DNA of 64,000 nucleotides from Candidatus Sysuiplasma superficiale (lineage in GTDB: Archaea; Thermoplasmatota; Thermoplasmata; Sysuiplasmatales; Sysuiplasmataceae), in contig JAGVSJ010000007.1 of assembly GCA_019720975.1 (NCBI GenBank), forward strand, positions 1 through 64,000, read 5' to 3'. Both the position numbers and the translations under genes were made by a program. Positions within the stretch are counted from its first letter, which is position 1. Each line of letters opens with the position of its first letter. Of the stretch, positions 29,929 through 38,183 are shown piece by piece. The notes beneath the pieces are model-generated. The model was not told where the DNA came from, searched no databases, and saw only the letters and a list, made by a program, of their open reading frames with translations.

Positions 29929-30846
29929 TTGGCAAGAATTAGCCTGAGGAAACAGGGAAACAGGCCGCTCAGGGCGCTGACTGTCTCCTGCGGGGGAGGG
30001 GGACGCAACATTGCAAATGCGCTGAAAGGAGATATGATATCTGTGGATACATCTGCGGAAGCGGATCTCAGGATGGATGCAGCTGCGATATCTGTGTCAG
30101 ATATGGATTCACAGTTTACAAGATATGTCACTTCCCCCTTCACCGAAGGGTTAAAGAAGGCAATGATCGGCCATGATGCTGTTTTTGCTGTGGCGGGACT
30201 CGGCGGTCTCGCTGGAGGGGTTGCCGTGGAGACCGTTGCCAAGCTTGCAGCTGTAAATTCACTTCCCTGCATTGCGTCAGTTGCACTGCCTTTTAACGTC
30301 GAGGGTTCACTGAGAAGGACTGAAGCAAGGAAGGCACTGAATCGTATTGGAGGGAGTGCAAGCATCACCATACCGTTTGAAAACAATATGATTGTTGAAT
30401 CAGTTCCATCGTTCAACATAATGAGGGCGCTGGCTGTGATGAACAGGATTATTGCATCTCCGCTACTTGACATCGGAGATGCTGGCGACGCCCTATGGTC
30501 AAAGGCACTCATAGGAAGGCATTTCATGGGGACATACACCGTTGGGTACTCTGCTGGCAAGGACTGGGAGGAAAGGGTGGTCTCAGAAATACTCTCCAAT
30601 ATCTTCGAACACCATCAGGGTCCGGGGAACATGTGCCTCTTTGTGAGAACCTCAAGCGACTCTGAAGAGAGCTGCCGGAAAATCGCAGAGGAGATAGAAA
30701 GGCGTTCAGATGTCGATGAAATAACAGTTTACGGAATGAGCGATGCCCATCCCGATCAGAACAGGGTTTCGGCCATATATCTCTACGCGGGAGCAGCGAA
30801 GAAATCACATTATCAGGCTGTTGATATCGTCCCTGACGGCACCTGA
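29929..30846 (+). CDS. Divergent FtsZ/tubulin-like protein
   Basis: A 305-residue protein that follows the FtsZ layout. The N-terminal strand and loop RALTVSCGGGGRNIANAL replaces the GGAGNNAV loop. The tubulin signature position reads AVAGLGGLAGGVAVETVAKL where FtsZ has GGGTGTG. MNRIIASPLLDI matches the helix before the T7 loop, and the DFAD catalytic motif is not clearly preserved (GDAGDALW). Nucleotide hydrolysis may therefore be lost. The start is TTG 29929, the only in-frame choice after an upstream stop. The last 42 bases overlap the convergent dphB. Confidence 0.65.
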   Translation: MARISLRKQGNRPLRALTVSCGGGGRNIANALKGDMISVDTSAEADLRMDAAAISVSDMDSQFTRYVTSPFTEGLKKAMIGHDAVFAVAGLGGLAGGVAVETVAKLAAVNSLPCIASVALPFNVEGSLRRTEARKALNRIGGSASITIPFENNMIVESVPSFNIMRALAVMNRIIASPLLDIGDAGDALWSKALIGRHFMGTYTVGYSAGKDWEERVVSEILSNIFEHHQGPGNMCLFVRTSSDSEESCRKIAEEIERRSDVDEITVYGMSDAHPDQNRVSAIYLYAGAAKKSHYQAVDIVPDGT

Positions 30847-33522: not shown

Positions 33523-36500
33523 TCACCTGCCAAAGAGCCTTGCGATCATCTCATCGATTCCCTCAATTTCCGACTGTCCTCCGTCCCACCTTTCCAGTGC
33601 AGGATATCTCCTCTCAACTGTTTCGATGAAATATCTGATATCCCTCGACCATCTCTTTGGCGGCTGACCTGAATAAAGCAGCAGAGCGAATACGTTCCTT
33701 CCTCTCTCTATGCCTATCGACATCCTTCCCATATCGATACGTCTCAGTGACTGATCCTCCTCCATCTGGGAGAAGGCCGTGGAAACAAAATCCTGTATGG
33801 CGGTAAACATGCCCACTATCAAGTCGCTGTCCTTTTTGTCCGCACCCTTCCTTCTGCCAGAGGCTATCAGTCTCCCATCCCTGTGAATGAGCAGAAGTGT
33901 ATCGAGTTCGAAGTCCGGAATTGCAAGACGTGTGTAGGCGGCGATTGCAGCAAAGACAGCAACTACGGATAGAAGAGCATAGGAGAGAATCGCATAAATA
34001 TTGGACTGATGAGAGACAAGCCGCACATGTACAGTTTCCTCAATGACCTGCCCTCTCGGGGAGGATACGAATATAACTATATTCTCCCCAGATATCCCGG
34101 ATGGCAGGTGCACCAGCACGTAATAACCTGCAGTCGAGACGCCCCTGCCCGACGCATTGATGCCCAGCGGCAGGTTGTTGGGGTTGCTGATGTATGGAGA
34201 GAGGTTTATCAGGAACATCGGGGAAGTGCTGTTGATGACAGACGGAATGCTGACCACCGGCGGTATGTATATCGGGAAGACAAAAACAAGCAGGACATAG
34301 TAGATGAAGCCGCTGCTTGAATTTATCAGGAAGACAACCCTTGTGCTGCCAGTGAAATATTCAGTTGGCCTTATGGTGACAGTGCCTCCTGTGGATATGC
34401 TCACATTGAGTTTGCCCGCGACAGCACTGAAATGCAGTATACTGTTCTGGGGCGATATGAAGAGTGCTGATAGATTGAGGTCCCTGAAAACGCCATTCTC
34501 CGGGACCGAGATTATTGCAGGAGGTCTGACTCCTGGAACAACAGAAGGTGGATAGCTTGATGACACCAGGATGCTGACTGGCACGCTCACGGAGTCGTTG
34601 GCAGAGAGCGAAAGAGGGCCGCCTACAAACAGCAGGGAAGTGTTGTACCAGTATGGCCCACGGTATACTGATCCGCCGCTTGAGTTGGCCGGCATTGAGA
34701 AGATAAGAGAGAAATTGACCCTGCTAAACACAATGCTGTCAGTACCGGTGAGAACAGTCACCTGATCAATCGGTACGTAGCTGTCAGTGACATACGGTAT
34801 GAGAGAAAGCATGTATGTTCCTGTGCCGTTGACAGCGTAGTGCACGCGGATTTGCGGGATGGGTGATACGGAAGGGGGGGAGACGTCATTGACAATGCCC
34901 ACCTCAACCAGCAGGAAGGAAAATTCACCATGGCTGCTGTTTGCCTCTATGAGCACTGACCCGCTGGAGGAGATTGGGTTGGCGGGAGCGGAAATCATGA
35001 CGGCGCCTGAAGAGGTGATATGTGCTGAAACAACGGATGACGAAACAGAGAAGGAGAGTGGTGTGGGGTCGTAGAAGTAGCTGCTGACAGTGTGCGGCAG
35101 AAGGAGAGTTCCTCCCCTGTCGACTGACACGAACGAGGGAGGTGCATTCTTTGTGTCTACCACCGGTACAGGGTAGGGGAGGACCTTTACTATCTGTATG
35201 AATCCTGCGGTCATGTTGTCAGGATCTGCAGCCGTGATGTAGACGGGAAATGAAGAGTAAAGTGACCCGGACGGAAAATAATAGTCAAGGGAGTAACCTG
35301 ACGTATAGACATAGGGTGAGGATGTCGATATCCTCACATCCAGAGGGGAGTAAGGCGCTGAATTCAGGAAGTACGTGTAGTTGAGAGAAAATACTCTCCC
35401 GGCCTCCACTGACATATAGCTGGGTAGGATGGAATTCCAAGAAGGTTTCGCAAGTATATCTACCAGCAAACTGGCTGAGGAAGAGTACCCTTGGGAATTG
35501 GAGATGACAACCGTCACGTTTGAAGAGCCGTAGACGCCAGCAAAGGAGATGAATGTTATGTTCATCTCGCCGAAGACACCTGAGCCTACCGTGTAGAAGA
35601 GCGAATCGCCGCCGTAGATGTGGAACTGCACATTGGAAAGGTTCGGATCGTTGGCATCAGATACATATGGGGAGAGATTGAACGACAGGCTTGCTCCGGA
35701 AGGTATCGTGATTTCCGGAAGATCCGAGAGAAACACAGGACTGAAGGCAGAGGGAATTACCTGAACAGAAGTTGACGTGCTTATGCCGGCTGATGTCACC
35801 TCGATGTAGCCGCTGGATACAGGCTCCTTTGATGCGACAAGCACGGCATAGCTGCCGTTGTAGGAGAGTTCTCCGGCATTGGTAGACCATACAGCATTTT
35901 CAACGTTGACCGGGTTTCCGTAGACATCATATCCTGATGCCTGGAAGAAATATGTCTGACCTGCAAGGAGCGTTTCGTTGGACGGACTTATATCCAGCGT
36001 GAAGAGCGGACCGGATGAAACTGATACTTCAGCATATCCACTGATGCCGTTGGACGGATCCGTGGCCTCTATTCTCCCTGTTCCGTTCCTCTGGGCAAGG
36101 AAGTTGCCTGAGGATGTGATATTTCCGATGTTCCCGGTTACGCTCCAGACAGGTGTCCAGCTCGTGTTCAGATTCCCATAGATGTCATAGCCATGTGCGC
36201 CGAATGTCTCATTCTCACCAGCGATCATGGAATACACTCCGGGCACAACGACTATCTTCTGAACCGTCGATGGGCTTACCGAAAGGCTGCCTTCTGAAAC
36301 AATCCTGCCGTAGGAAAGGACAAGTGTGAAGTTTGAAGAACGCAGGACGGTCAGGTTGAATGATGCTTCACCAGCTGTGAACACAGCACTCACAGGTGAA
36401 TAGAGAGAGGTGCTTAGGGAGGTGCCGTTGTTATACAGTAGTGTGACACTGACATTACCATCGAATGTCTGCATGACCTGGCCGCTGTCAGAGACAGCTG

Positions 36501-37545
36501 AGACTTTGAGGTTGTATGGGACTCCAGCATTGAGATGGGATGAAAGCGGCACTGAAAAATACTTCAGAGAGGGAAATACCTCAAGCGTTATGTTCTCGAA
36601 GTATCTTTCTGAGTATCCTGTCATGTTCGACACGGTCGAAGCAACGAAGCTTACAGTGTAATTGCCATACTCGAGAGGTGCAGCAGTATAAGTATAGGAT
36701 CTGAAGTAGCTGCCTGTTGTGAGATTGGACATGGCTGAGGAGAGGATCTCTGCCCCGCTACTGTTCATGATTGTTACAGTGACCCCATGTATATCACTGC
36801 TGCCCAGTGAGTCTGAAACATTTGCATAAAGACCTATGGACTGGTTGTCATATACCGCTCCCTTATCAGTGACAGAGGCTGAAAGTGAATCGAGTCTGGG
36901 TGTTATGTTCAGCTTGAAGTTTGAGGGGACATTGCTGTAATCGAATTCGACATAAACACTTGTCTGGTAGTTGCTGTCGATTCTTGTGAGATTGAGAACA
37001 ATGTTGCTTCCGGCGCCAATGCTGTAGCCCTGCCCTGGTATGTTCATCCGGACATGCACCAATTCATTCGGCACGATGAATATGTTGCCGGTGCTGCCGG
37101 AAGTGATGTTAGATATCACCCCACCTGTGACATTCTGGAGAGTGGCTTCGATGTCCACGGGACTTCCTGTCGATGTGTTGGACGGGGTGAGATAGAGCGT
37201 AACATTGACCTCTCCGCTGAGCACTGCCGGGAAACCCATGGCGGGTGCCGCTATCCATCTGAATGAATTGTATGGCGGAGAGGCGTTGATGGATATCCCC
37301 TGATAGCTGCTGCTTATGAAGTAAGGATTGGGCGGATTGTAGGGAGTTGATGTGTTTGCCCAGTCAAACCGCTTCGAATAATCTCCAAAACCGTGCTGGT
37401 CGTCGTGCAGGTAGAAGGTTGTGTACGATGTCTGGGGGGATGAAGCGTGAACACCTGCTGAGGTTGCAAGCGGAAATGCGGAAACAAGCATTATGATGAG
37501 CAGAATAAGATTGAAGCCCTTCCTGAAAATCAAGTCGCTGCCCAT
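33523..37545 (-). CDS. Giant surface protein with Ig-like repeats, C-terminal membrane span and cytoplasmic roadblock/longin-like tail
   Basis: 1340 residues. The signal sequence is LILLIIMLVSAFPLATSAG near the N-terminus. The ectodomain (about 40–1180) is Ser/Thr/Asn-rich with many NxS/T sequons and several Ig- or cadherin-like beta repeats, recognisable by recurring motifs such as the VSSGPLFTLDISPSNETLLA segment and the phrase LSPYVSDANDPNLSNV. A span (about 1182–1205, IYAILSYALLSVVAVFAAIA) is followed by a charged 134-residue cytoplasmic domain: LDTLLLIHRDGRLIASGR, FTAIQDFVSTAF and IERGRNVFALLLYSG. This strand–helix–strand pattern looks like a roadblock/longin module. It lies 56 bases downstream of a Ras-like GTPase on the same strand. 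Confidence 0.8.
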   Translation of the reverse strand: MGSDLIFRKGFNLILLIIMLVSAFPLATSAGVHASSPQTSYTTFYLHDDQHGFGDYSKRFDWANTSTPYNPPNPYFISSSYQGISINASPPYNSFRWIAAPAMGFPAVLSGEVNVTLYLTPSNTSTGSPVDIEATLQNVTGGVISNITSGSTGNIFIVPNELVHVRMNIPGQGYSIGAGSNIVLNLTRIDSNYQTSVYVEFDYSNVPSNFKLNITPRLDSLSASVTDKGAVYDNQSIGLYANVSDSLGSSDIHGVTVTIMNSSGAEILSSAMSNLTTGSYFRSYTYTAAPLEYGNYTVSFVASTVSNMTGYSERYFENITLEVFPSLKYFSVPLSSHLNAGVPYNLKVSAVSDSGQVMQTFDGNVSVTLLYNNGTSLSTSLYSPVSAVFTAGEASFNLTVLRSSNFTLVLSYGRIVSEGSLSVSPSTVQKIVVVPGVYSMIAGENETFGAHGYDIYGNLNTSWTPVWSVTGNIGNITSSGNFLAQRNGTGRIEATDPSNGISGYAEVSVSSGPLFTLDISPSNETLLAGQTYFFQASGYDVYGNPVNVENAVWSTNAGELSYNGSYAVLVASKEPVSSGYIEVTSAGISTSTSVQVIPSAFSPVFLSDLPEITIPSGASLSFNLSPYVSDANDPNLSNVQFHIYGGDSLFYTVGSGVFGEMNITFISFAGVYGSSNVTVVISNSQGYSSSASLLVDILAKPSWNSILPSYMSVEAGRVFSLNYTYFLNSAPYSPLDVRISTSSPYVYTSGYSLDYYFPSGSLYSSFPVYITAADPDNMTAGFIQIVKVLPYPVPVVDTKNAPPSFVSVDRGGTLLLPHTVSSYFYDPTPLSFSVSSSVVSAHITSSGAVMISAPANPISSSGSVLIEANSSHGEFSFLLVEVGIVNDVSPPSVSPIPQIRVHYAVNGTGTYMLSLIPYVTDSYVPIDQVTVLTGTDSIVFSRVNFSLIFSMPANSSGGSVYRGPYWYNTSLLFVGGPLSLSANDSVSVPVSILVSSSYPPSVVPGVRPPAIISVPENGVFRDLNLSALFISPQNSILHFSAVAGKLNVSISTGGTVTIRPTEYFTGSTRVVFLINSSSGFIYYVLLVFVFPIYIPPVVSIPSVINSTSPMFLINLSPYISNPNNLPLGINASGRGVSTAGYYVLVHLPSGISGENIVIFVSSPRGQVIEETVHVRLVSHQSNIYAILSYALLSVVAVFAAIAAYTRLAIPDFELDTLLLIHRDGRLIASGRRKGADKKDSDLIVGMFTAIQDFVSTAFSQMEEDQSLRRIDMGRMSIGIERGRNVFALLLYSGQPPKRWSRDIRYFIETVERRYPALERWDGGQSEIEGIDEMIARLFGR

Positions 37546-37601
37546 TTGGTATCGCCATCATATTTTATCCCAGCAGACGGCATGAAAACACTGTTTCCCC
37601 T

Positions 37602-38183
37602 TCATTTCCTTGATGTCAGCATGGAGGCAAGTCGCATGAAGGCTGACTCCACACCCTCGCCCGTCTTCGCACTGGTTATCATAGAAGGAGCTCCATATGA
37701 GGTCGCGACCTTCTCAATGTCCTGATTCGTGACCGTTATTCTGTCCCTGAGATCACTTTTATTGCCAATGAATATCATGGGTATGTGGCCTGTTATGCTC
37801 TCCATTGACTTTATCCAGTATTTAAGCTCTTCAAGCGACTCCCTGTTTGTCAGATCGCAGACGCATATGGCACCCTCCGCACCGTAGAAATAGGATTCGC
37901 GCAGCAGTTCCCTGAAGCCTTTCTGGCCCATTATGTCCCAGATGAGCATTGACAGGTTGATCTCCCTGCCGTTGTCTTTCTTTACGGTCACTTCCTTCTT
38001 CGTGACTTTCGTTCCTATGGTTGAGGTGTACTTATCGTCAAATGTATCGAGTACGAATCGCCTGATCAGACTTGTCTTACCGACATTGTTGTCTCCGACC
38101 AGACATATTTTCGTCTTTATTTCTTCATTCAGCCCAATCACCCTGACAGCGCCGTTAACTGAGTGAGTCAGTGCATTAATCAT
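37602..38183 (-). CDS. Ras/Rab-like small GTPase
   Basis: A 193-residue P-loop GTPase with all five G motifs: G1 GDNNVGKTSL (30–39), G2 threonine in STIGTKV (about 54–60), G3 WDIMGQ (82–87), G4 NKSD (141–144) and G5 TSAK (170–173). This is the eukaryotic-like Rab/Ras type, not the bacterial MglA or elongation-factor type. The C-terminus has no cysteine for lipidation, so membrane recruitment must use a partner. The first ATG (38183) lies only about ten bases from a TATA-like aaatatattta stretch, so a later start such as GTG 38141 is possible. The receptor-like surface protein is downstream. Confidence 0.92.
   Translation of the reverse strand: MINALTHSVNGAVRVIGLNEEIKTKICLVGDNNVGKTSLIRRFVLDTFDDKYTSTIGTKVTKKEVTVKKDNGREINLSMLIWDIMGQKGFRELLRESYFYGAEGAICVCDLTNRESLEELKYWIKSMESITGHIPMIFIGNKSDLRDRITVTNQDIEKVATSYGAPSMITSAKTGEGVESAFMRLASMLTSRK

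Follow-up and report, generated by a model that had tools for sequence, protein, structure and literature searches.

A predicted longin domain as the tail of an archaeal surface receptor encoded beside a Rab-like GTPase

In the window analysed here, a 64,000-nucleotide stretch of DNA from the archaeon Candidatus Sysuiplasma superficiale (Thermoplasmatota), the gene for a small GTPase lies just upstream of the gene for a large putative surface receptor. The question raised by this locus is whether the two products work together, with the cytoplasmic tail of the receptor controlling the GTPase. Two related questions are: (i) what kind of domain the tail is; and (ii) whether the two genes belong together in other genomes. 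The features of the locus are as follows.

37602-38183, minus strand: Rab1-like small GTPase, 193 aa, complete G motifs, no C-terminal cysteine (ORF, Pfam Ras and PDB match)
37546-37601, minus strand: intergenic gap of 56 bases between the GTPase and receptor genes, both on the same strand
33523-37545, minus strand: surface receptor-like protein, 1340 aa (ORF)
37456-37545, minus strand: predicted signal peptide, approximately residues 1-30 (hydrophobic N-terminus judged from the sequence)
33994-37455, minus strand: ectodomain with 43 N-X-S/T sequons (no family over the cut-off in its own sequence; Big_9, PKD and FG-GAP in relatives)
33937-33993, minus strand: predicted single transmembrane span, residues 1185-1203 (hydropathy scan)
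33526-33927, minus strand: predicted cytoplasmic tail, residues 1207-1340, 134 residues
33541-33897, minus strand: predicted longin domain, residues 1217-1335, order b-b-a-b-b-b-a-a (AlphaFold, Foldseek and profile-profile match)

The receptor and the GTPase

The original prediction described a eukaryotic-type GTPase of 193 residues followed, 56 bases later on the same strand, by a 1340-residue protein with a signal sequence, a single membrane span and a cytoplasmic domain of 134 residues. The open reading frames, the hydropathy profile and the distribution of sequons all agree with this description. The ectodomain contains 43 N-X-S/T sequons, compared with a mean of 17 and a maximum of 30 in shuffled sequences, and the tail contains none; the ectodomain is therefore predicted to lie outside the cell and the tail inside. 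Judged by hydropathy and sequons, the protein has the signal peptide, glycosylatable ectodomain, single span and cytoplasmic domain of a single-pass surface receptor. The proposal that the ectodomain is Ig-like fared less well, because in the receptor itself the Pfam scan gives a FlgD_ig match that falls below the cut-off (E 0.038); in an orthologue, however, Big_9 scores over the cut-off.

The upstream protein is matched by Pfam Ras at E 1.9e-38, well over the cut-off, and its G1 (GDNNVGKTSL), G3 (WDIMGQ), G4 (NKSD) and G5 (SAK) motifs are present, with the usual Gln after DxxG. The P-loop, DxxG, NKxD and SAK elements, together with the family match, place it in the Ras superfamily. The solved structures nearest to it by sequence are Rab-1B (E 1e-29), Rab-1A and Rab-8A, and these top PDB sequences identify it as Rab-like, as opposed to Ras, Rho, Arf or MglA. 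Its C-terminus (...MLTSRK) was inspected for the prenylation cysteine of eukaryotic Rabs and has none, as had been predicted. The homologues mostly share this property: among 109 distinct sequences, 105 have no Cys within the last five residues and four have one.

Several observations concern these genes and their surroundings. At four loci (L131, L134, L136 and L151) the GTPase is extended at its C-terminus by about 75-90 residues, and at the first three of these its gene is convergent with a longin-tailed receptor gene. One GTPase match (L078 in genome G006) is interrupted by a single TAG, which may reflect a start-site difference, a pseudogene or an assembly error. Near the pair in the window, at 29929-30846 on the plus strand, is a gene for a divergent FtsZ/tubulin-family protein of 305 aa (Pfam Tubulin E 6.8e-8, just over the cut-off).

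The fold and family of the tail

When 55 members of the tail family, including the tail from the window, were scanned against Pfam and NCBIfam, nothing scored above the cut-off; the consensus sequence of the tail had no match in Pfam, and neither single-sequence nor profile searches turned up a sequence relative of the tail in the PDB. The family is apparently missing from Pfam and NCBIfam. A weak match to DUF4372 (E 0.04) was treated as noise. Roadblock/LC7 (PF03259) gave weak matches in 4 of the 55 members, with a best E of 0.033, which falls short of membership in that family.

The assignment of the tail is based instead on its predicted fold, a profile-profile comparison and a genome scan with a longin family. 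Two AlphaFold models, each built from an 11-row alignment with a different first sequence, had pLDDT values of 81.2 (pTM 0.76) and 80.2, and both show the order b-b-a-b-b-b-a-a that is typical of longin domains. The leading Foldseek matches of the models in the PDB are all longin or roadblock proteins (Ykt6, Sec22b, VAMP7, TRAPP, zeta-COP, MglB and Ragulator). The best TM-scores belong to longins, i.e., 0.71 and 0.69 for TRAPP (7b6d_E), 0.61-0.68 for Ykt6 and 0.58-0.69 for Sec22b, and those of MglB and Ragulator are mostly lower; RMSDs to known folds are at least 3.3 A. The profile of the tail aligns with that of ten archaeal Robl_LC7 proteins with a probability of 76 (E 2.3e-5) over 94 collinear columns, compared with probabilities of 0.3 or less for column-shuffled controls. 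Finally, a six-frame scan of 390 Thermoplasmatota genomes with PF19036, the first longin of FUZ, MON1 and HPS1, gave 25 matches at E <= 0.1, and the five with the best scores all belong to the receptor-tail family. The best of these (G389:C4) reaches 27.8 bits against a curated cut-off of 26.1; the copy in the window itself has no match.

We conclude that the receptor tail is, by predicted structure, a longin domain with a sequence link to the longin of MON1, HPS1 and FUZ. The original prediction, a pattern call of roadblock or longin, thus holds and is narrowed to longin, and a fold unrelated to either, which would have counted against it, is not what the models predict. A plain roadblock identity was dropped, as the models lack the N-terminal helix before b1 and Ykt6 and Sec22b rank high.

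The same predicted longin domain occurs in other protein contexts. Relatives of the receptor have ectodomains of FG-GAP and PKD repeats and end in this domain, which is also found within STAND-type ATPases (L075 and L126), after polytopic membrane regions (L129), alone (L128) and in tandem (L143). In three further proteins a receiver-like response-regulator domain, recognised by eye from the sequence, is fused to the longin domain (L211, 3725-4684, minus strand; L213, 8844-9665, minus strand; L214, 367-1230, plus strand), and these fusions link two-component signalling to the tail family.

Pairing of the two genes across Thermoplasmatota

The order of the two genes on one strand, GTPase and then receptor, recurs at other loci, including some from distant families (L009, L011-L013, L015-L020 and L115), where the adjoining receptor orthologues are 1336-1431 aa in length and the gaps are small, mostly 3-128 bases. 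The flanking genes differ between the family of the window and the group formed by L015, L016, L019 and L115, and the pair has therefore been kept while its surroundings changed. Each of the eight genomes sampled from the order has one GTPase gene and one receptor gene, and in seven of the eight they lie on one contig within about 5 kb. The neighbourhood comparison that the original prediction called for thus finds the pair conserved but adjacency not universal: in many relatives the two genes lie apart. Among the loci examined, a natural GTPase-longin fusion was sought and not found.

In the sample of 390 Thermoplasmatota genomes, many of them MAGs, the tail domain is present in 51 and the GTPase (threshold E 1e-10) in 62. 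Both are present in 47 genomes, the tail only in 4, the GTPase only in 15 and neither in 324; many of the 15 GTPase-only genomes are based on weak GTPase matches. At the genus level the corresponding counts are 33, 1, 11 and 111 (p 3e-23), although the samples share ancestry and such p-values overstate their independence. Among the matches listed, the copy numbers of tail and GTPase are correlated (rho 0.87), and a GTPase gene lies within 1.5 kb of 13 of the 150 tail copies, where about one would be expected. Eighteen genomes have exactly one tail and one GTPase; in genomes with several tail copies, the majority of these do not adjoin a GTPase gene. The trees of tail and GTPase are congruent (r 0.82, with species history left in), which lends weak support, and both the co-occurrence and the congruence are partly a matter of shared ancestry. 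Overall, the pairing of GTPase and receptor is far beyond chance.

In genomes with a single GTPase, the GTPase gene is followed in an operon by a gene for a V4R-DUF835 protein. V4R is related to Bet3 and has been proposed as the ancestor of a TRAPP component (PMC2253512). At L179-L184 there is a conserved run of GTPase, V4R-DUF835 protein and pyruvoyl arginine decarboxylase genes (e.g., L180, 7927-9895, minus strand), with heterodisulfide-reductase-like genes nearby. In the window's own genome, a separate pair of V4R and roadblock genes adjoins (L206 in G000:C6, 7016-7363 and 7371-7775, both minus strand), and similar V4R-roadblock pairs are found in G002, G012, G258 and G301.

Possible roles of the pair

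Eukaryotes use the longin fold to control Rab switches, and MON1 and HPS1 are subunits of exchange factors. We consider it reasonably probable that the two proteins form a receptor-GTPase module, in which the longin tail, as a membrane-tethered platform, would recruit the GTPase and regulate it, most likely by acting as an exchange factor, and so pass an external state inward. The tail of the single-pass, 1340-residue surface protein, alone or as a dimer, would dock the Rab-like GTPase encoded just upstream and draw it to the membrane, a role suggested by the lack of a lipid anchor on the GTPase. It would then change the nucleotide state of the GTPase, as do the longin platforms Mon1-Ccz1 and the TRAPP core, such that the switch would follow the receptor's external state. 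Exchange is the most likely activity because the nearest sequence relatives of the tail are RabGEF subunits.

Gene order, topology and predicted fold, the PF19036 link, the recurring pair, co-occurrence, matched copy numbers and proximity all support this module, and from them we infer physical binding, dimerisation, exchange rather than GAP activity, and the direction of the signal. It is supported further by the likeness of the GTPase to Rab1, whose exchange factor in eukaryotes, TRAPP, consists of subunits of the longin and Bet3 types (PMC10933270), together with the V4R gene that adjoins the GTPase in single-GTPase lineages. In general, small GTPases are bound by longin and roadblock platforms in a conserved geometry (PMC10933270, PMC3521125). 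The module is weakened by the distance of most tail copies in multi-copy genomes from a GTPase gene, by the shared ancestry behind part of the co-occurrence and tree congruence, by the 15 genomes with a GTPase match and no tail, by tail models that draw on 11 sequences and have RMSDs of at least 3.3 A, and by the fact that some longin domains, such as those of SNAREs, do not regulate GTPases (PMC10933270).

The signal might also run from the inside out, with the GTP-bound GTPase in control and the receptor tail as its effector, so that the switch sets the clustering of the surface protein or the binding of its ectodomain. Rap1 controls integrins, and relatives of the receptor are integrin-alpha-like in having FG-GAP repeats, a PKD stalk, one span and a short tail. 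Many receptor types with one common tail would likewise be expected of effectors of a shared switch, and in single-GTPase genomes the GTPase shares its operon with V4R, a possible part of an exchange factor, and not with the receptor. We nevertheless regard this direction as unlikely, given that MON1 and HPS1, the nearest longin relatives by sequence, belong to exchange factors and that the fusions of longin to response regulators and STAND ATPases resemble input modules.

It is quite improbable that the tail is a GAP like MglB, which would turn the GTPase off at the receptor until signalling relieves the block, or when signalling imposes it. GAPs such as MglB are indeed among the roadblock/longin platforms (PMC10933270, PMC3521125), and the profile comparison connects roadblock proteins with the tail; however, both the fold of the tail and its strongest sequence link point to longins, the GTPase already possesses the Gln that usually follows DxxG, and the same genome encodes separate, true roadblock proteins. 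Very improbable is the absence of any functional tie, with the tail binding, for example, peptides or lipids like SNARE longins and the shared neighbourhood being coincidental. Longins with other roles are known and many copies of the tail are distant from every GTPase gene, yet the pair is retained in lineages whose flanking genes differ, and co-occurrence, copy number and proximity are all over expectation.

The proposed module resembles several known systems. The first longin of MON1, HPS1 and FUZ (in Mon1-Ccz1, BLOC-3 and CPLANE) has the same fold, is the best sequence relative found and has a Rab-like partner; here, a single longin forms the end of a membrane-spanning surface protein from an archaeon outside the Asgard group, and neither additional longins (a second or a third) nor a partner like Ccz1 were found. 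In MglA-MglB and other prokaryotic pairs, a small GTPase gene also lies beside a gene of the roadblock/longin superfamily, whereas the present tail has the longin order without the N-terminal helix and is fused to a receptor, and the GTPase is nearest to Rab1. Prokaryotic systems of GTPase and roadblock protein are already known, among them the membrane-linked actinobacterial conservon CvnA-D (PMC4316618), which likewise unites a membrane sensor, a roadblock-type protein and a small GTPase; its sensor is a histidine kinase and its roadblock protein is free, whereas the present receptor carries the regulator domain as its own tail and a kinase is absent. The TRAPP core, a longin heterodimer with Bet3-type subunits that is a GEF for Rab1, shares with the archaeal genes a Rab1-like GTPase, a longin and a V4R/Bet3-related protein, the last being encoded next to the GTPase in related genomes; here V4R forms a fusion with DUF835, and its gene does not adjoin that of the receptor. 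Asgard archaea have the same toolkit of folds in their longin, roadblock, TRAPPC3 and Rab-like proteins, but in MK-D1 small GTPase genes are reported to be generally outside operons with such partners (PMC10933270), whereas in the Thermoplasmatota pair they are together. A 2016 paper noted Rab-like sequences from Aciduliprofundum and a Thermoplasmatales archaeon (PMC4915359). In the literature searched, longin domains were joined to Thermoplasmata only in passing mentions, and we saw no account of a surface receptor that ends in a longin and is paired with a Rab-like GTPase.

Finally, we note that the tail family would join many types of sensor to small GTPases. A broader idea, which we offer tentatively and with more doubt than conviction, is that Thermoplasmatota possess a receptor-coupled Rab switch, in which the MON1-type longins of receptors, response regulators and STAND ATPases would be exchange factors for Rab1-like GTPases, and V4R/Bet3 proteins would be further parts. 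Longin-based control of Rab GTPases has been discussed as eukaryotic or Asgard. The co-occurrence of longin-tailed receptor and GTPase across many non-Asgard archaea suggests that receptors control Rab-like switches outside eukaryotes as well. If so, longin-based Rab regulation exists outside Asgard archaea and might predate eukaryotes, and sensing at the cell surface would be among its uses. A linked Rab-like GTPase and longin-tailed receptor, present one-to-one in many near-complete genomes, would offer a small system for asking what such switches did before endomembranes.
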